Below are positions 916-64,000 of a stretch of DNA of 64,000 bases, piece by piece. Source of the stretch: Candidatus Kapaibacterium sp. (GTDB taxonomy: Bacteria; Bacteroidota; Ignavibacteria; Kapaibacteriales; Kapaibacteriaceae); NCBI GenBank assembly GCA_030833725.1, contig JAURGP010000002.1:34261-98260 (forward strand), in the 5' to 3' direction. Every line of letters begins with the position of its first letter. The stretch's first letter is position 1. Position numbers and translations under genes: made by a program. The notes beneath the pieces are model-generated. The model was given only the letters and a program-made list of their open reading frames with translations, was not told the origin of the DNA and made no database searches.

Positions 916-3326
916 TTGCCTGCTCCACCGGCGCTCATCATGTTGGCTAGCAGCTTCAGCGCTCCAGGCACACCAGCAGGTACGTTTCGGAACAGCGATA
1001 ACGCACAGTACACGTAGTGCCCCTTTCCGTACGAGGCATACACAAGTGATCCTTCCTGTGCATCCTCTCCAGCATCGTTCATACTCAGTAGACGCTGGTA
1101 CCGCTCATCATGATCGCCGGTGAAGTACAAACCCCGCTCCTGCACCCATCCAGAAAAGTCGTCGGGTTCAATACGATTGGGGGTCGTCATCAGGATGTGG
1201 TCGGGATCTCTCAGCGTTACAGTGGCATTCTCCTCCGTCACCCGGTTACGCGTGATCTTCATCGGAAACGGGCCAATCTCTGTGGTCTTCAGATTACCAG
1301 TTGTGTTGTACTGCATCACCAGCGTACCACCCTGCTCTACATACTGCATCAGTGCCGGCATCACGTAGGTCATGTCCGTGCGCGTGTTCAGGGCGCGGAT
1401 ACCTACCAGCACAGCATCGTAGGTGTCAAGCAACTGCTGAGTGTTGAGCAGTTGGTCGGTGGACACCACATCCACCCGCACGCCCATGGTACGCAGGACG
1501 TCTGCCGTTGCCTCGCCAGCCCCTTCCACAAAAGCGATGCGCCGAGCCGTTACACGAAGAGGTTCGGCTACCACCCGCAGACGCGCTGGTTCAAGGTACT
1601 GCAGGGTAGGAAGGTGGTCATACTGCATCACGCGGACGCAATGCTGAAACGTGTGCTGTGCATGAGTAACAAGCACATCCACGTTATCCGACTGCTGTGT
1701 TTGAATCGGCACCGACAGCAGGGTATCCGTATTGGCCGCCATCGAAAAGGTCACGGTGGTAAGGGGCTCACCACGGCTGCTGCGTACCGAGAGTGTAGCG
1801 TTACTGATGTCACGGTAGGCTCTCAGGCGAATGCCGATGGTACCCTGACCATTGTTCACAACAACGAGCGTCGTTGTTGGCTCGATGCTCACATCGGGAA
1901 TCACCCGCAGCTCCTCGATCACATCGCCCTTGAGTGGGTCGAGATGTTTGTAGCTAAGAGGCACCGTAACCAACAGCAGTGCTCCATCTACATCCAGATG
2001 TACCGTACACTGCAGTTCGGGAGGAGTGGTTGGTTCGCCCAGGAGATCTTCGTTCTCTAACGCAAACAGACCGCCTTCCGGATCCTTCTGCAGCCAGTAG
2101 GGATTGGTGGTGGGCGTGGTTTGCGGTATCTGGATCTGATACGATCGGGTTACCAACTGATCGTTGCCAAGTACAACCACATCTGCGGTTGACACCTGTG
2201 GAAGGTCCACCTTCATCAATCGCACGTTGGGCGCCCGGACCACCACGCGGAGTGTTACGGCAACAGAGTCGCCGGGCAGCACCATCGGAGTGGACACAGA
2301 CGCGTCCACGGTTAGACCCATCGCCGAGGTGATCACCGATTCGACCTCTGAGAGTTTCAGCGCTCGCCAGAAGGGATCGTTGATCGTAGCGATCATCGAT
2401 CGGATGCGTAACAACGCTGGCAGATGGTTCTGCGGATCTGTGGTCCAGAAGTTGTCGATCACCACTTGAATTGCTCTACCAATGTCTGGTCGATCAATGC
2501 GATTCCACGTGGTGTCGATTCCGTTGAAGAGGCTGGTTGTAGGGGGCTCTCCGTACCATGTTTCGAAGTACTCTGGCTGTGTTCCTGGTGTGCTTGGTGT
2601 ACCTGCACCCTGACTCTTGTGCAGGCTTCTGCTCCTGCCGGCCAGTTCGCCATATCCCATGCCGATAAGAGGGTCGTACTGACCAACCTGCAGAGCAAAC
2701 TGGCTCTCCGTGATCGTGCTGCGGTCGCCAAATCGATACGCGTTGAAGAGCAGTCGGTGCGGACGAAGATGGCTCGGGCATGAGGCTACAGCTGCCTGTG
2801 CAAGAATGGCCGACGCCTCATGTTGTCCGTGACCTGCCATACGTGATGCTGGAAAACGGCAGATCATCACATCCGGCCGGAACCTCTCCATGACATGGAT
2901 GATGTCCCGCACGAGTTGGGCAGAGTCCCAATGAGTAAATGTCTCCCGAGCAGTCTTCGAAAAACCGAAGTCCAGTGCTCGGGTAAAGTACTGCTCTGCT
3001 CCATCCAATCTCCGTGCCGCCAGAAGTTCGTGGGTGCGGATCAATCCCAGCGCCGAGCCCAGTTCACCACCGATGATATTCTGGCCACCATCACCCCGCG
3101 TAAGCGACAGGTAGGCTGTACGCACGTGTTTGCCCCGGGCCAGCCAGCTCAGTAGGCGCGTGTTCTCATCGTCGGGGTGGGCGGCTACATACAACACGGA
3201 CGTCAGTGACTGCAACCGTTGCAGATCACCATACAGTACCGAGGACATCTGTGGCTGTAGCTGCTGGGCATGCAGCGCAACCCCGATGCACAGCGCTAGT
3301 ACACCGAAACAACAGCGTTTGATCAT
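912..3326 (-). CDS. PIG-L (LmbE-like) deacetylase family protein, large secreted form
   Basis: AAHPDDENTRLLSWLARGKHVRTAYLSLTRGDGGQN motif; N-terminal signal peptide. Confidence 0.88.
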   Translation of the reverse strand: MIKRCCFGVLALCIGVALHAQQLQPQMSSVLYGDLQRLQSLTSVLYVAAHPDDENTRLLSWLARGKHVRTAYLSLTRGDGGQNIIGGELGSALGLIRTHELLAARRLDGAEQYFTRALDFGFSKTARETFTHWDSAQLVRDIIHVMERFRPDVMICRFPASRMAGHGQHEASAILAQAAVASCPSHLRPHRLLFNAYRFGDRSTITESQFALQVGQYDPLIGMGYGELAGRSRSLHKSQGAGTPSTPGTQPEYFETWYGEPPTTSLFNGIDTTWNRIDRPDIGRAIQVVIDNFWTTDPQNHLPALLRIRSMIATINDPFWRALKLSEVESVITSAMGLTVDASVSTPMVLPGDSVAVTLRVVVRAPNVRLMKVDLPQVSTADVVVLGNDQLVTRSYQIQIPQTTPTTNPYWLQKDPEGGLFALENEDLLGEPTTPPELQCTVHLDVDGALLLVTVPLSYKHLDPLKGDVIEELRVIPDVSIEPTTTLVVVNNGQGTIGIRLRAYRDISNATLSVRSSRGEPLTTVTFSMAANTDTLLSVPIQTQQSDNVDVLVTHAQHTFQHCVRVMQYDHLPTLQYLEPARLRVVAEPLRVTARRIAFVEGAGEATADVLRTMGVRVDVVSTDQLLNTQQLLDTYDAVLVGIRALNTRTDMTYVMPALMQYVEQGGTLVMQYNTTGNLKTTEIGPFPMKITRNRVTEENATVTLRDPDHILMTTPNRIEPDDFSGWVQERGLYFTGDHDERYQRLLSMNDAGEDAQEGSLVYASYGKGHYVYCALSLFRNVPAGVPGALKLLANMMSAGGAGK

Positions 3327-7976: not shown

Positions 7977-8623
7977 ATGGCTATTCAACGAGCACCAAAA
8001 AAAGTAAAGTGGTATGTGGTCTGGATTGGCCACGAGCCAGGTTTGTACCCATCATGGGAAAAGTGCAAAGCTCAGGTAGAAAACTACCCGGGCTCGAAGT
8101 ACAAGGCCTTTGACACCCTCGCCGAGGCAAAGGCGGCCTACGAGCAGGGTCCACCTGCGCGCGCAGCAAAAAAAAAGAGCAGCTGATACCCATCTCCCAG
8201 CGCTGGGTTGAGGCCGGCGTACAGCTGCCCAGCATCAGCGTGGATGCGGCCTGCGACATGACAACCGGCGTCATGGAGTACCGTGGCGTAGATACCGAGA
8301 CCGCTGCGGAAATCTTTCGGATGGGTCCATTTCAAGACTCCTCAAACAATCTGGGAGAGTTCTTGGCTGTAGTGCACGCACTGGCCTTTATGAAGGAGCG
8401 ATCGATGGCACTTCCTGTGTACACCGATTCGAAGACTGCTCTTGCCTGGGTGCGCAATAAGAAGGCCAAGACTACCGTTCAGCGAACGTCGGGCAACGCT
8501 CCCGTGTTTGAGTTGATTGCCCGAGCAGAAACGTGGCTTCGCAACAACACCTATCCGAATCTCGTTCTGAAATGGGAAACCGAGCAATGGGGCGAGGTTC
8601 CTGCTGACTTTGGGCGGAAGTAA
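7977..8623 (+). CDS. rnhA: RNase H with N-terminal viroplasmin-like domain, split by a -1 frame change at A9 (8168-8176)
   Basis: Frame 1 (to 8186): MAIQRAPKKVKWYVVWIGHEPGLYPSWEKCKAQVENYPGSKYKAFDTLAEAK; frame 2 reads through from the A run: KKKEQLIPISQRW...ISVDAACDMTTGVMEYRGVD...NNLGEFLAVVHALAF...KWETEQWGEVPADFGRK. Confidence 0.8.
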
Positions 8624-56416: not shown

Positions 56417-57136
56417 ATGCTTTCAGAGCAGCAATCAAGCGATTTCGAGCATGTAGCGGGCAATGCAGCGGGCAGCAACACCGCCGTTCCAGGCTGGATG
56501 CAGTCCATGCAACAACAGTGGAAACTCTACGCTGGTGTGGTTGCCGTGGTCGTGATTGGTATCGGTGCCGCATGGTGGTACACTTCGTCGTCGGATGAAA
56601 AGAATGCAGCTGCGGCCGCCGAACTTGCACGCATCCGCAGTGTGTTCGAAGCCGGTCAGTTCGAACAAGCCCTTAGTGGCGAAGGTGTGATGGTAGGCGA
56701 TCAACAGGCCATGGGCCTAAAACAGATCGCCGACACGTATGGCTCTACTCCAGCTGGTCAGGTTGCAGCCCTCCTTACCGGAAACAGCCTGGTCAACCTC
56801 GGAAAGTTCACGGAAGCAGAACCGTACTTTACTTCTGCCAGATCCAGCAGCGCTCTGATTGTGGAAGTTGGTGCTATTCAAGGACTTGCGTCCTGCATGG
56901 AAGCCACAGGCAACTACGCAGGTGCAGCTGATCTCTATGTGGAGGCAGCCAAACGGGCAGCGGATACTGGTCTAGAACCAGCTTGCTACCTAAAGGCAGC
57001 CCTGTGTTTTGAGGCGGCAAAGGACACAAAACAGGCAGCTGATGCCTACACTACGATTGCTAAACAGTACGAAACGTCGGAGGTTGCTCCCCAAGCAAAA
57101 ACAGGTCTCGCCAGGCTTGGCATGGCAATTGATTAG
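56417..57136 (+). CDS. membrane-anchored TPR protein (YfgM-like)
   Basis: Single TM WKLYAGVVAVVVIGIGAAWWYT followed by TPR-like alpha repeats. Confidence 0.75.
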   Translation: MLSEQQSSDFEHVAGNAAGSNTAVPGWMQSMQQQWKLYAGVVAVVVIGIGAAWWYTSSSDEKNAAAAAELARIRSVFEAGQFEQALSGEGVMVGDQQAMGLKQIADTYGSTPAGQVAALLTGNSLVNLGKFTEAEPYFTSARSSSALIVEVGAIQGLASCMEATGNYAGAADLYVEAAKRAADTGLEPACYLKAALCFEAAKDTKQAADAYTTIAKQYETSEVAPQAKTGLARLGMAID

Positions 57137-57138
57137 TG

Positions 57139-57164
57139 AAGGGCTGGCATTGTGTGCCCTTTTG
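57139..57164 (+). terminator. intrinsic terminator candidate
   Basis: AAGGGC - TGGCATTGTGT - GCCCTTTT, directly after the TPR gene stop. Confidence 0.55.
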
Positions 57165-57276
57165 CTGTTCTACCCCACATGATGGGGTGAGACCATTTGC
57201 AGAAGGCACTCTCACAAAGAAGAACATGATTCTAAATACAGATCAAAGACATAAGGTTTTTACAACTGGAGGTTGT

Positions 57277-60200
57277 ATGCAACGTTGGTTTCGTCTCAGC
57301 AGCTTGCTGCTAGTGTTGACTGCCGCGTTCTCAGTGGCTCAGGCCCAAGTAGAAGTGCGTGGTAGTCTTCCACCGGGCGAGGTGCGCATTTTCGTGCGTG
57401 ACTCGATTTACCGGATTAGCGGCACGTACACGATTGGCGGTACCCTGGTCATTGAACCAGGTACGCGAGTCGAGTTTATGCCGAACGGCCGTCTGATCGA
57501 TTCGACCGGTGGTCGAATCATCGCTGACGGTCGCGCCTCGGCAACATATAATGCCAATGCGGTGAATCCGCTGGTCGCCCCCTACACGGGATACGACGAT
57601 CCAGCGTACTTCGCAGCACCTGGCGTTCTCACAGGGAATATCGCAGCCGAACCGACGATTCATGCGTCGAACTACAGCCAGGTATTCCATGTAGATATGG
57701 ATGACAACAATCCAAATCTTCAGAACCTGACACCAGGTGAAGCCATCGTGTATTACGCAGCCCGTCTGAACATGGGTGGTGTGATCTCGGCGATTCGCCT
57801 GAATCCATGGTTCCGTGAAAAGGCTGGAAGTGACATCAACGTGTCGCAGGCACGGATTACCTTCATTGCTGGAGACGTGAACAACTTCTCGCGCGAGTGG
57901 GGTCACATCATCGTTCTGCCAGGTGCCAACGCCGCCTTCTTCCGCGACGTTGACTTTGTGAACTTCCGCAAAGACACCACGGTAGATAACGAACCTGTGT
58001 ACCTGCAGAACGTGTCGGGTAACTCGTTCACCCGCGCTCAGGCAGAAGCAGCAAACAATACACTGATCAGTGAGACGAACGGTAGCGGTGGTGCACTCAC
58101 CACATACTCCGTTCGTACATGGTTGGTTGGCTGTACGTTCCGCGGAAACATGGCTCGCTACAATGGTGGAGCTATTCAGATCCGTCAGGCCCCGGTTGAT
58201 AATAGTGGCGCTCTTCAGCTGTATCCAAACGCTGACGCCACCTACAACAACCTGCCGAACTACAATCCAACAGCGAACCCGTTCATCACCAGCCCATGGA
58301 CGAACGATCCAATCGCTCAAAACATCAAGGCTATCGACCAACTCTACAACCCGAACTACGTTGCTCCGCTGAATGACGCTAACCGTCAGAAGTACGACGA
58401 CGCTCGCGTTGCCATGTACCTCGGTCGTATCCGTCAGTTGAAGTTCTACGGAAACCACACCCTGATTGCAGACGTAGATACGGTGCTTATCGGTGGTATT
58501 CGTGTTGTTTCCGACAAAGACGCAGCTGCTACGGTGTTTGGAACACCTGGTCGCTCACAAAAGAATATGGCGGCCGGTGGCGCTGTATACATCTCGGGAC
58601 GTACCCCAATGCTCGTCGGTCTGGGTATCAACGACTTCCAGGGCAAAGACACGATCCTGTTTGATGGTAACTACGCTGAAAACCGTCAGCCAGCAACGCC
58701 AAACAACGGCGTATACACGATGGGTGCTAAGGGTGGTGCTCTGTACGTCGGTGACAACACGTCGCTGATGGTTGCAGGTCGTTACACCAACAACCACACC
58801 CACGTACCATACATCACTGACTCGACCACGAATGCAACAACATCGCTTGCTTCGTACTCGCACGGTGGTGCTATCTATGCAAACAACAATGCCTGGACTT
58901 TGTACGTACGTGGTGGTCTGGATAACAATCCTCCAACCCACTTCACGAACAACACGTCCGGACGTGGTGGCGCTATCTACACAGCGTACAACGCTAACGT
59001 GAAGCAGGTATCGCCGCACATTGGTGGTTCCGATGGCATTATCAATGCTCGCAACCAAGGCTACAACATCAAGTTCCGCAACAACATGGCAGTCGCTTCG
59101 GGTGGTGCTATCCACACCGAGCGCAACATGTATGTCTACGGAGCTGGTGGTGCTAGCGGCTCGCTGTGGGTATATGGTGCCAACTACGGTATCGACTTCT
59201 CTAACAACGAAGCCGGCTACTATGGTGGTGCAGTGGCTGTCGATCAGCCAGCAGGCCTGCCTATCTCCGAACGTGCTCTGCGCTATGTGCGTGCGCAGTT
59301 CGTTGAGAACGTTGTTGGTAACGTTAACCAGAACCTGAAGGACAACGTACGCGGCGGTGGTGGTTTGTACACCATCAATGCCGATCTGAACGTTGTAAAG
59401 GGCGTTGAATTCCGCGCTAACGAAGCATGGAATGGTAACGGTGGTGCTGTAGCGGTGGTAACACCTGACACACTGACGCGTAAGCGATTCATGGTGACGG
59501 ACCTAGACGAGATCTACTACAACATGGATGGCGTTGCTACTGGCTACATGCCACGTAACGACGTGTTTACCTTCCAGAACGGTTCCCTGCAGCCAGACGA
59601 GCGCATGTTGACGCGCTTCTACGATAACGTAGCAGCTCCAAACATGGACCGTATGGGTTCAGGTACCACACAGATCGGTGACATCAACATCACCCACCCA
59701 GGAACATTGGTACGTGAAAACGGTACCGGTCTTGGTGGAGCGTTGTACATTCTTGACTCGATCCGCGTTCGCGTTGACACCTTCTCGTTCGACCGCGTTC
59801 GTATGCAAAACAACACGGCGTTCAGCGGCTCGGCGATCTACTCCGACAACTACGACCTCAAGCTTGCAATGCTGCGTAGCTACATCACAGCTAACAAGGC
59901 GACGTCAAGCATTGGTCGTTCGGACGAAGAGATCGAAGGTCCTCTTGTCAACAACGAAAACGCCGCATCGAGCGACCTCGCAGCTGCTACGATCTATGGT
60001 GAACTCGTTGGACCACTGCCATGGACATCCTACAGCTTTGCTGCTAACTCGATCTACAACAACGATGCGCGCTTTACGATACGTTTGCCAGATGCACAGG
60101 ACACCAAGGGTGTACTTGCAGGTAGCACCGGAATCGGCTTTGGTGGTGTAGACACACTTCGCGGCAACTACTGGGGCCGTACAGAAGCAGACGTAACCAC

Positions 60201-63200
60201 GGTTCTCCCAGCTTCGGCAAACAACTCGTTCCGCCGTACGCAGGAAACCTTCTTTATCGCTGGTAACGGTGACACCCACATGCAGTTTGTACGTGGCGGT
60301 GCTGGTACTCAGCAAGGCCCATTCGAATCGCAATGGCGCCTCACCTACACGCCAATCGATATCTATACGATTCCTGACACCCTTCTGATGCAAGGTCGTA
60401 TCTACGACATCTTCGACAAGGGAACGGACATCAAAACAGCAGATTACTCGAAGCGCCGCATGGCTCCTGTCGAAGACTTCGCCGTAGGTATCGCACCAAA
60501 CGTGAAGCGCTTTGTAGATGCTACGCAGCCCTCGTTCAACAAGTATGTAAAGCGCTGGACACGTAATCCATTCGATGCCGAAGAATACGATTACATCGCA
60601 GCCGTGCAACGCGAATTCACAGGTAACCACCCAATTGGCTACCCATTGTTCCTGGAGGCACATGTAGACTATAGCGCTACGGCTTCGATCAGTAACAACG
60701 ACCTTCGCGAAGTAAACGAGCAGGTGTTCTTCGTAATCAACGAGCGCACCGGTGACTACATCCGAGCCATCATGCACCAGCGTGATGCACTGGACGAAGT
60801 ATACCGTGCCCGAGTAGAACTTGTTCCTGACTCCACCAATGGTGCTGATCCAAACCAGCGTCGCGGTCGCGAAGGACTGGCAACGTATGGTACGGGTGCT
60901 ACTCTTCTCGGTCTGTTGCGCGCAAATGCAATCCGTGAAGACTCAGCCGCACTTGCAGGTCGCGTATGGGACGGCAGCACGACGAATGGCGAACTGGGTG
61001 GTGCAAACTTCCGCCTCGGCAACCGTCCTTCGCTTCCAACATCGAACAACGGTAAAGAAACGTTCTACGGTGGTGAGCGCTTCCGTGCTCTCCCAGTACG
61101 CGCAGGTGACAACGTCATGGTTGTTTCGCGTACAGTACTGTGGAAAGAAGGCGTGAACTCTGCTCTGAACGGTGCCCTCATGTTCACCGTTAACAACCAG
61201 ACAGAACCGCCAACATTCACAGGTTCGGGCGACACACTTGCTACCGACGCCACGATTCACCCAGAAATGCGCAACCGCGTGTTCGTAACGGAGAATCGTC
61301 TGTACACGCCAATCACGGCTGCACAATCACGCCGTCAAGGCGGTGGAAGCTGGTTCAACGAACCAGTAAGCTATCCAGCTGACTCGGCAGGTAACGCAAT
61401 TCCAAGCCGTAACTGGATGGAACGTGACTCGATCTTTACGATCACAGCTGTAGACGCCAACGGATTCTATGATCCTCGCACGATCATGGATAGCACATGG
61501 GGCGCAGAACTGTCGTACTTCTGGCGCATCACGTCGCCGAACTCGGCCCTCCGCTACTGGCTCCGTGACACCCTCGTTCGTGTATCTGATGGTGACAACC
61601 AAGCTTGGGGAGCACGTGGCTACCTCGTTCTGCGCGGTCGTCCAATCAATCCATACATCGTACCTGGTGGCGAAGAAGTAGAAGTAACAACAAAGAACTT
61701 CCCACCAAGCCTTGAGATCGTGGACTCCCTGCGTTCGGCTGGCTATGACGACGAAGTTGTATCGCGTTGGTTCTACACCTACCCATCATACTTCCACGCT
61801 GAGAAGTATGACAACAATGAACTTGCACTGGGTGACCGTAACCCAGGTAACACGAATGCTCGTTACCTGCAACAGGACTCCGTGAACTACGGCTGGTTGG
61901 ATACAACCTCGTATCGCTTCCGTATTCACGTGGTGGATTCGATGCCACGCTTCCTCTGGGCTCACAAGCCAGATCGCTTTGGCCGTCAGTACACCGAAAT
62001 GCTTGCTGGTGACACGACGATTGTTCTGGACCCAACGACAACAGATCCAAACTCGTTCAGCAATGGCGAGTACATTGATACGCTCCGCATGTTCGTAACG
62101 GCATCGCGCGTTGGTCGTCGCTTGACCGCTCCAAATGCCATCAACAACGAAGAGTACAACGATCCAATTGGTAACCAACCTGACTCGATCGACATCCAAT
62201 TCGTAGCAAACTTGACGGACTCGCTCCGCTTCAAGCTCGATGTGAACACGGATGACGAATTCGAAGACATGGCTGCCATGGACGCCAATCGCTGGGTAGT
62301 TCAGCAGTACGGTGCTTGGGACTTCCGTTATGGCAAAACTGCCTATGGATTCAAGTCTGTCGCTGTACGTGAAACACCAGGTGACACCACGAACGACGAA
62401 GTGGTAATGGCACGTCCAGTCTGGATGGCTAATCAGTACCTCCGCAAGTTTGATGCTTCGGAAGCTATTGACCCATTCGCTGAAGATCTGTCAACAGCGG
62501 GTAAGATTAACATCCGTATCGCTGCTGATGAGGCCATGAACATTCTGAAGGCTTCTAATCCATTCAATCCTGGCAACCCATATCACCGCGACCTGAACAC
62601 GGACACCGTGATGACGATCGTTGTGAATGATGGCCATGGTGGAATCAATCAGCTTACACGTCGCGTGTTCGTCAACGTTGCACCAGAGATTCTGACAGCA
62701 AGTCTGCCAGACGCTATGGAGGACATGGACTACAACGTAGCTCTCCTTGATAGTGGTCGTGCCATCTCGGTTTACGACGCTAACTGGGGCCAGGCTCGCG
62801 AATTCGAACTGATCTACGGTTCAGAGTCACGTGATTCAATTCCGGTGGACCCATACTTCCCTGAAGCTGGCTACATCGTATTTGATGAATCGAACAAGAC
62901 CACCCCGGAGTGGTTGAAGATCAATAGCAAGAGCGGTCTTCTCTACGGTACCCCACGCGTGACAGACGTTCCGTTCGCTGATACAACGGTTCTGGTAACA
63001 GTCCTCGTTGAAGACGCCGGTGGTCTGCGTGACATCAAGAGCATTCCTCTGCGTATTGAAGCAAAGAACCACGATCCTGAACTGTTCGAATCACCAATCA
63101 TCTCCTGCGTCGAACTTGGTGCAGAGTATTCTGATACCATCACGGTAACGGATATCGACCTGGCCCGTCGTCAGGCTGGCAATGAGAAGTTGACGTTCGA

Positions 63201-64000
63201 AGTGATTGAACCCGCTGGTTCTTGGTCGATTACGCCAGAGTCCATCGAAAGCCCTGTGGCTGACACACAACGTATCGTTGTAAGCAACAACGCTATCTCC
63301 GGATCACCGGTAAATGGTAAGCTTACGATCGTAGTTGTAGTAACTGATGCTGCTGGTGCTGCTGACACGCTGTCGTACGAAATCGCTGTTTCCTCGGAAA
63401 CGCGCTTCACCGCCGACATCCGCGTACAGAATAACCTTGGTGCCTTCGACATTCTCACGTTTGGTGTAGGGGGCTCGGATCCAGCTACGCGTGGTGATGG
63501 CACGGATGCTACGGCTCCATTCGGCAAGCTCGACTCGAACTATTGCGAATTCGAACTGCCACCAGTTCCGTACGTAGACGTCTTCGACGCCCGTTGGACC
63601 ATTCCAAACCGTAACGGTGTAGACCGCAACATCTATCCATTCTCGACCGATCCTGGTGAGGCAATCTATCGTGCCCGCTTCCAGGCAGGTGGCGAAACGG
63701 GACAGAGCTCGGCCTACTATCCAGTATCGATCTCGTGGTGCCGCGACCGCATCCCAGCTACGGATGCTGCTAACCCCGGATCGTACTACATCCGTGACGA
63801 CATCTCGAACGGTGCCATCTTCTCGTACAACATGAAGACTGGTGAAGGTCGTTCGGCTGCTGACGTGATTCACAAGACCGATGGTTCGTGCGATACGATC
63901 ATCATCAGCCGCGACGCTCTCAAAGGCTTCATCATCGTGTATGACTTCACAACAGATGTTGCTGATGACAACGCGACGATGACGAACATGCTGGCGATCA
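57277..64000 (+). CDS. giant secreted protein, Pmp-like GGA[IVL] beta-helix repeats then cadherin/He_PIG-like domains; truncated by window end
   Basis: RBS GGAGG then MQRWFRLSSLLLVLTAAFSVAQAQ; open for at least 2,241 codons; GGAIYANNN, GRGGAIYTAYN, ASGGAIHTERN, YYGGAVAVDQ, GNGGAVAVV, LGGALYILD; EWLKINSKSGLLYGTPRVTD. Confidence 0.9.
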   Translation, partial: MQRWFRLSSLLLVLTAAFSVAQAQVEVRGSLPPGEVRIFVRDSIYRISGTYTIGGTLVIEPGTRVEFMPNGRLIDSTGGRIIADGRASATYNANAVNPLVAPYTGYDDPAYFAAPGVLTGNIAAEPTIHASNYSQVFHVDMDDNNPNLQNLTPGEAIVYYAARLNMGGVISAIRLNPWFREKAGSDINVSQARITFIAGDVNNFSREWGHIIVLPGANAAFFRDVDFVNFRKDTTVDNEPVYLQNVSGNSFTRAQAEAANNTLISETNGSGGALTTYSVRTWLVGCTFRGNMARYNGGAIQIRQAPVDNSGALQLYPNADATYNNLPNYNPTANPFITSPWTNDPIAQNIKAIDQLYNPNYVAPLNDANRQKYDDARVAMYLGRIRQLKFYGNHTLIADVDTVLIGGIRVVSDKDAAATVFGTPGRSQKNMAAGGAVYISGRTPMLVGLGINDFQGKDTILFDGNYAENRQPATPNNGVYTMGAKGGALYVGDNTSLMVAGRYTNNHTHVPYITDSTTNATTSLASYSHGGAIYANNNAWTLYVRGGLDNNPPTHFTNNTSGRGGAIYTAYNANVKQVSPHIGGSDGIINARNQGYNIKFRNNMAVASGGAIHTERNMYVYGAGGASGSLWVYGANYGIDFSNNEAGYYGGAVAVDQPAGLPISERALRYVRAQFVENVVGNVNQNLKDNVRGGGGLYTINADLNVVKGVEFRANEAWNGNGGAVAVVTPDTLTRKRFMVTDLDEIYYNMDGVATGYMPRNDVFTFQNGSLQPDERMLTRFYDNVAAPNMDRMGSGTTQIGDINITHPGTLVRENGTGLGGALYILDSIRVRVDTFSFDRVRMQNNTAFSGSAIYSDNYDLKLAMLRSYITANKATSSIGRSDEEIEGPLVNNENAASSDLAAATIYGELVGPLPWTSYSFAANSIYNNDARFTIRLPDAQDTKGVLAGSTGIGFGGVDTLRGNYWGRTEADVTTVLPASANNSFRRTQETFFIAGNGDTHMQFVRGGAGTQQGPFESQWRLTYTPIDIYTIPDTLLMQGRIYDIFDKGTDIKTADYSKRRMAPVEDFAVGIAPNVKRFVDATQPSFNKYVKRWTRNPFDAEEYDYIAAVQREFTGNHPIGYPLFLEAHVDYSATASISNNDLREVNEQVFFVINERTGDYIRAIMHQRDALDEVYRARVELVPDSTNGADPNQRRGREGLATYGTGATLLGLLRANAIREDSAALAGRVWDGSTTNGELGGANFRLGNRPSLPTSNNGKETFYGGERFRALPVRAGDNVMVVSRTVLWKEGVNSALNGALMFTVNNQTEPPTFTGSGDTLATDATIHPEMRNRVFVTENRLYTPITAAQSRRQGGGSWFNEPVSYPADSAGNAIPSRNWMERDSIFTITAVDANGFYDPRTIMDSTWGAELSYFWRITSPNSALRYWLRDTLVRVSDGDNQAWGARGYLVLRGRPINPYIVPGGEEVEVTTKNFPPSLEIVDSLRSAGYDDEVVSRWFYTYPSYFHAEKYDNNELALGDRNPGNTNARYLQQDSVNYGWLDTTSYRFRIHVVDSMPRFLWAHKPDRFGRQYTEMLAGDTTIVLDPTTTDPNSFSNGEYIDTLRMFVTASRVGRRLTAPNAINNEEYNDPIGNQPDSIDIQFVANLTDSLRFKLDVNTDDEFEDMAAMDANRWVVQQYGAWDFRYGKTAYGFKSVAVRETPGDTTNDEVVMARPVWMANQYLRKFDASEAIDPFAEDLSTAGKINIRIAADEAMNILKASNPFNPGNPYHRDLNTDTVMTIVVNDGHGGINQLTRRVFVNVAPEILTASLPDAMEDMDYNVALLDSGRAISVYDANWGQAREFELIYGSESRDSIPVDPYFPEAGYIVFDESNKTTPEWLKINSKSGLLYGTPRVTDVPFADTTVLVTVLVEDAGGLRDIKSIPLRIEAKNHDPELFESPIISCVELGAEYSDTITVTDIDLARRQAGNEKLTFEVIEPAGSWSITPESIESPVADTQRIVVSNNAISGSPVNGKLTIVVVVTDAAGAADTLSYEIAVSSETRFTADIRVQNNLGAFDILTFGVGGSDPATRGDGTDATAPFGKLDSNYCEFELPPVPYVDVFDARWTIPNRNGVDRNIYPFSTDPGEAIYRARFQAGGETGQSSAYYPVSISWCRDRIPATDAANPGSYYIRDDISNGAIFSYNMKTGEGRSAADVIHKTDGSCDTIIISRDALKGFIIVYDFTTDVADDNATMTNMLAI

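Follow-up and report, generated by a model that had tools for sequence, protein, structure and literature searches.

The window, by which we mean the whole 64,000-nucleotide stretch of DNA analysed here, belongs to the 1.98-Mb draft genome of an uncultured bacterium from the Candidatus Kapaibacterium group (G000; 92 contigs, 98% complete) and contains an RNase H1 gene (rnhA) whose N-terminal hybrid-binding domain (HBD) and RNase H domain lie in different reading frames that meet at a run of nine A's. The locus comprises the following features.

7977..8186, + strand: 0-frame open reading frame of 69 aa, RNase H1 N-terminal hybrid-binding domain (PF01693, E=2.2e-19) plus linker
8168..8176, + strand: A9 slippery run, read from the sequence in the phase (GC)A AAA AAA AA(G) and containing A_AAA_AAG
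8168..8623, + strand: −1-frame continuation, linker plus RNase H domain (PF00075), with the stop TAA at 8621-8623, recognized by Pfam and by selection
8179..8228, + strand: potential stem-loop, GCAGCTG...CAGCTGC around CCCAGCGCTGGG, recognized from inverted repeats and not supported as a conserved stimulator

From its ATG at 7977, the 0 frame encodes a product that begins MAIQRAPKKVKWYVVW and ends ARAAKKKSS, the last codons being GCA GCA AAA AAA AAG AGC AGC TGA, with the TGA at 8184-8186. Starting at 8114, the −1 frame has no stop until its TAA and encodes an RNase H sequence ending PADFGRK. Pfam assigns the 0-frame product to the Cauli_VI/RNase H1 N-terminal domain (2.2e-19) and the −1 frame to RNase_H (5.9e-6). 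Joined through the A9 run, the two frames specify a 215-residue protein in which the HBD is followed by a Lys-rich linker and the RNase H domain; an alignment with chain 6dmn, a solved RNase H, covers 131 residues of the catalytic domain without a gap (2.4e-40), and the HBD aligns to solved RNase HI/H1 N-terminal domains. The four catalytic acids, at positions known from the B. halodurans enzyme, align as (i) the Asp of SVDAAC, (ii) the Glu of LGEF, (iii) the Asp of YTDS, and (iv) the Asp of ADFGRK, and all four are present both here and in the copy of a sister species (G002). The domain order of an HBD-type RNase H1, PF01693 and then RNase H, is thus present, but across two frames. The repeats GCAGCTG (8179-8185) and CAGCTGC (8222-8228), as well as CCCAGCGCTGGG (8196-8207), are all in place, and every coordinate that a first-pass annotation had assigned to the A9 run, the 0-frame stop ending at 8186, the passage of the −1 frame into RNase H, and the repeats proved correct.

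The split copy is the sole PF00075 match in G000, as its counterpart is in G002, and both genomes also encode an RNase HII. Judged by translation, the neighbors of rnhA are a ComM/YifB-like gene upstream on the opposite strand and a dUTPase-like gene downstream. Long open frames cover 97% of the window, which therefore gives no sign of widespread frameshift errors. At 57133-63999, a 2289-codon open frame, which would encode a very large protein, runs to the end of the window.

The RNase H1 domain was found in 21 of the 99 relatives' genomes searched, and all 21 (G000 included) belong to the family. Leaving aside G000 and G002, as well as the G020 copy, which was not judged because of an N gap, the 18 readable family copies are single open frames with no homopolymer. 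The frame bearing the domain comprises 75 codons in G000 and 126 in G002, compared with 193-285 codons in the other family copies. Surveys of the class and the phylum added single-frame copies only, apart from a Bacteroides sp. ET71 locus (L099, ∼3130-3180), in which the frame breaks between the HBD and RNase H at another place, with no homopolymer there, and which we set aside as probably an isolated error or mutation. Because the other copies surveyed in the family, class, and phylum are single open frames of 193-285 codons, the HBD-RNase H fusion is the usual form of the protein. Some RNase H domains of this kind have no HBD detected upstream, namely L086-L098, L100, and L101 from Prevotellaceae and Bacteroidaceae, and L079, L083, and L085 from Symbiothrix, which suggests that the HBD has been lost in these lineages. 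For three of them (L085-L087), upstream translations in all frames revealed no HBD.

G002 represents another species of the same genus (JANJTN010000026.1, bacterium isolate RX1_metabat.bin.9). At the homologous codon, it too carries nine A's (L011:1662-1670), with GAGC next, and its RNase H domain again lies in the −1 frame. The 0-frame stop is a TGA two codons past the Lys codons in G000 and a TAG six codons past them in G002, and the linkers of the two copies have diverged. In the RNase H tree, these two copies form one branch (94/94 support), and the split therefore probably has a single origin; it is seen in two species, each represented by one genome. The idea that relatives might lack a homopolymer at this linker consequently holds for the 18 single-frame copies and fails for the nearest relative, G002.

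Comparison of G000 with G002 shows that synonymous differences are saturated, with pS values of 0.735 and 0.745 in the two halves of the gene, whereas pN is 0.067 in the upstream half (0 frame) and 0.112 in the downstream half (−1 frame). Counted by codon position in its own frame, the upstream half has 5/5/31 differences and the downstream half 19/12/70, so that the third-position signal changes frame at the A run. Each half is thus under purifying selection in its own frame, and both are maintained although the frame changes between them. In the 0 frame, the downstream half contains stops in both species; in the −1 frame, the catalytic half is strongly conserved and has no stop over about 150 codons. 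Only 71 of the 153 aligned codons for the same amino acid are identical, yet all nine A's are kept, including the third base of one Ala codon and of two Lys codons; in neighboring genes, AAG accounts for 59 of 78 Lys codons. Moreover, in the part of the G002 −1 frame that separates the run from the catalytic Asp, ATG, GTG, and TTG are all absent. An active enzyme in this species hence could not start at a usual codon, and we rejected the idea that the catalytic half has a start of its own. In G000, a GTG (8240) closely precedes the catalytic Asp; a start there would remove most of the first β strand.

A/T runs of at least nine occur at 7 sites in the 1.98 Mb of G000 and at 11 sites in G002 (the run-length table was computed for 1.3 Mb), and several of these sites consist of a hairpin and a run, resembling terminators. 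With such runs this rare and the same split in a second species, the A9 at the frame junction is, on sequence comparison, more than a chance occurrence. The heptamer A_AAA_AAG, which the first-pass annotation had identified as dnaX-type, is indeed in the right phase in both genomes. The stem-loop proposed in the same annotation fared differently: its repeats exist, but a stimulatory role is not borne out. The folding energy downstream of the run is unremarkable for sequence of this composition, with a z score of −0.86 in G000, where 38 of 200 shuffles fold as well, and of +0.59 in G002, where the structure, in this comparison of two sequences only, is unlike that of G000. Inspection of the 17 nt that lead up to the run revealed no AGGAG-like (Shine-Dalgarno-like) element in either species (CCACCTGCGCGCGCAGC in G000; CCGCCCGATCGGACGGC in G002). 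A search of 1.24 Mb of G000 together with the window for one or two Lys tRNAs, the number of which has a bearing on ribosomal frameshifting, found no Lys tRNA.

Four genic runs of G000, in rnhA, a DksA/TraR-like gene, atpI, and a gene with a Lys-rich tail, are all A9 or longer in G002 as well. The DksA/TraR-like zinc-finger gene (L105/L127 on contig C50, 19-28, in G000; L115/L123 in G002; L124-L145) is split in all 23 family genomes, with a Lys/Ala-rich open reading frame and the DksA/TraR domain in different frames (0 to −1). The upstream reading frame is cut by a contig end in G000 and G006; for G019 and G020, the assignment relies on upstream reading frames that are incomplete. The junction is A10 in 22 of these genomes and A11 in G004, is in frame in none, and is followed by the 0-frame stop after 0-3 codons. 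Outside the family, the same split occurs in two other families, at A10 in G028 and G054 and at A9 in G055 and G060; in most other members of the order, the Lys/Ala part is either missing or in frame with the DksA/TraR domain. A hairpin directly 3′ of the A10, its structure derived from folding a single member of the set, shows double changes in 9 of its 10 pairs. None of 500 shuffles attained its covariation score, which drops when the structure is slid, and RNAalifold alone recovers only 3 of the pairs. The sequence support for a covarying hairpin after this run is therefore good but not conclusive.

In atpI, a gene of the ATP synthase operon (L102/L232 in G000; L112/L229 in G002; L230-L246), 16 of 18 family genomes carry an A9 or A10 close to the 3′ end. 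Beyond the run, the 0 frame goes on for 11-21 codons and the −1 frame meets a stop within 1-5 codons in 16/16, a count of hidden stops that, the sequences being related, is not a test. The fourth gene encodes a conserved protein, and the A9 falls within its Lys-rich C-terminal tail (L104:1771-1779 in G000; L110:1534-1542 in G002); the flanking bases are kept in both species, with −1-frame extensions that are unlike each other.

We propose that the locus holds one functional RNase H1 gene, the frame of which is broken at the A9 run and would be restored in a fraction of the products. Recoding at this run, by the polymerase and ribosome routes taken together, is very probable from the sequence evidence. 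This agrees with the first-pass proposal that recoding yields both full RNase H1 and a short protein that binds hybrids, for which the split shared with the sister species and the selection acting on each frame provide strong support. RNA polymerase would slip on the nine A's and add one A to some transcripts; the resulting A10 transcripts, by standard translation, would give the full HBD-RNase H1 of 215 aa, and the unslipped A9 transcripts would give the 69-aa HBD-only protein. Slippage by RNA polymerase is, in our assessment, the probable main route, and the ribosome, by slipping −1 at A_AAA_AAG, may play a part or may itself provide the main route. We favor the polymerase because (i) the run, at nine A's, is longer than ribosomal frameshifting needs, (ii) the A10-A11 split recurs in 23/23 family genomes, and (iii) rnhA has neither a Shine-Dalgarno-like element nor a supported stem-loop. 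Among the features by which transcriptional slippage is recognized, those found in the two species are a run of about nine or more A's at the junction, conservation of the run and the split, and selection in both frames. It is also at a run length of nine that many bacteria begin to show clear selection against slippage (PMC1088944). The existence of slippage, its level, and its transcriptional nature are what we infer here; a use for the 69-residue HBD-only product is presumed in the same way, and this product may be a by-product.

Among the alternatives, programmed −1 ribosomal frameshifting at A_AAA_AAG on a faithful A9 RNA, of the dnaX or IS3 type, survives best, and we consider it unlikely as the sole explanation. 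The heptamer is in the correct 0 frame in both species, and in E. coli it is reported to be far more shift-prone than other heptamers tested (PMC5009743). Further, the covarying hairpin after the DksA-like A10 suggests that the lineage may use 3′ stimulators; such a hairpin speaks more for a ribosomal than for a transcriptional mechanism, because a polymerase on the run has not yet copied it. Against this reading stand the lack, in both species, of a Shine-Dalgarno-like sequence in the 17 nt that precede the run, downstream rnhA folds that are neither significant nor alike, and a run of nine A's where A6G would suffice.

An assembly error or a phase-variable tract, with A10 as the true or an alternative allele and a gene that is sometimes intact in the DNA, draws on the mutability of homopolymer tracts and on the single genome examined per species, and we regard it as very improbable. 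The identical A9 occurs in two independent assemblies, from species with saturated synonymous divergence, and this second occurrence of run and split makes the homopolymer error considered in the first-pass annotation very unlikely. In addition, the contig name in G002 (k141, MEGAHIT style) suggests short reads, the long open frames over 97% of the window argue against error, and the DksA-like run stays at 10 in 22/23 genomes and is never in frame, unlike variable tracts or random errors. Gene fission, by which the HBD and RNase H would now be separate genes, or decay of the catalytic half is at least as improbable: loss of RNase H1 might be tolerated, since RNase HII is present in both species and the split is found in only two, and fission could appeal to the GTG at 8240 and to the Prevotellaceae domains of the same RNase H type for which no HBD was detected, but the conserved, stop-free catalytic half, the A9 kept despite saturated synonymous change, the missing start codons in G002, and the cost of the GTG start to the first β strand all count against it.

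Returning to slippage as the preferred reading, we raise tentatively, as something that may well prove wrong, the broader idea that slippage on A9-A11 runs is a standing expression mode of several core genes in the family, namely the Lys-rich/DksA-type regulator (23/23), atpI (16/18), and RNase H1 (two species). If so, the level of slippage could jointly set the ratios of short to long products and might couple the condition of RNA polymerase to both the removal of R-loops and the control of transcription. On evolutionary grounds, the DksA-like A10 and the atpI A9 make the stronger cases. So far, slippage has been found to recode scattered genes, and a recoded RNase H1, the remover of RNA/DNA hybrids, would fix the ratio of a hybrid binder to a hybrid cutter. 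With the DksA-like A10 split, its covarying hairpin, and the atpI run, the lineage offers a natural test bed for the maintenance of slippery runs and for polymerase versus ribosome as the slipping partner. For gene callers, such genes would be recorded as broken or as two fragments.

The open-access literature yielded no report of slippage or frameshifting for bacterial RNase H1, DksA-like genes, or Kapabacteria; the frameshift in Buchnera RNase HI is described as a loss of activity (PMC1950709). Like the HBD-containing RNase H1 of Bacillus halodurans and human, the rnhA described here has both PF01693 and PF00075, which lie in one frame in those enzymes and in two frames here. The −1 frameshift of Escherichia coli dnaX involves the same heptamer in the same phase and likewise gives 0-frame and −1-frame products. 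It relies on an upstream Shine-Dalgarno-like element and a downstream stem-loop, whereas rnhA lacks such an element and its stem-loop is unsupported; moreover, the shifted product is the shorter one in E. coli dnaX and would be the longer one here. A dnaX parallel within the genus itself was sought and discarded, as the dnaX loci examined in G000 and G002 contain neither A_AAA_AAG nor an A8 run. In Citrobacter rodentium tssM1, slippage on an A11 run restores a broken frame in about 20-25% of products, and both forms are made (PMC4256274). The template frame of rnhA is likewise broken at a poly-A run, but that run is A9, the gene and function are different, and the case is known from sequence, whereas that of tssM1 was shown experimentally. 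In Thermus thermophilus dnaX, transcriptional slippage on an A9 run, which gives tau and gamma, has been shown experimentally (PMC1088944, PMC5009743). As in that gene, the nine A's of rnhA lie in a Lys-coding stretch of a gene for a nucleic-acid enzyme, and two product lengths are expected. In Thermus dnaX, however, the template frame gives the long product and slippage the short one, whereas in rnhA slippage is predicted from the sequence to be needed for the long product; in atpI, one extra A would, as in Thermus, give a truncated product.
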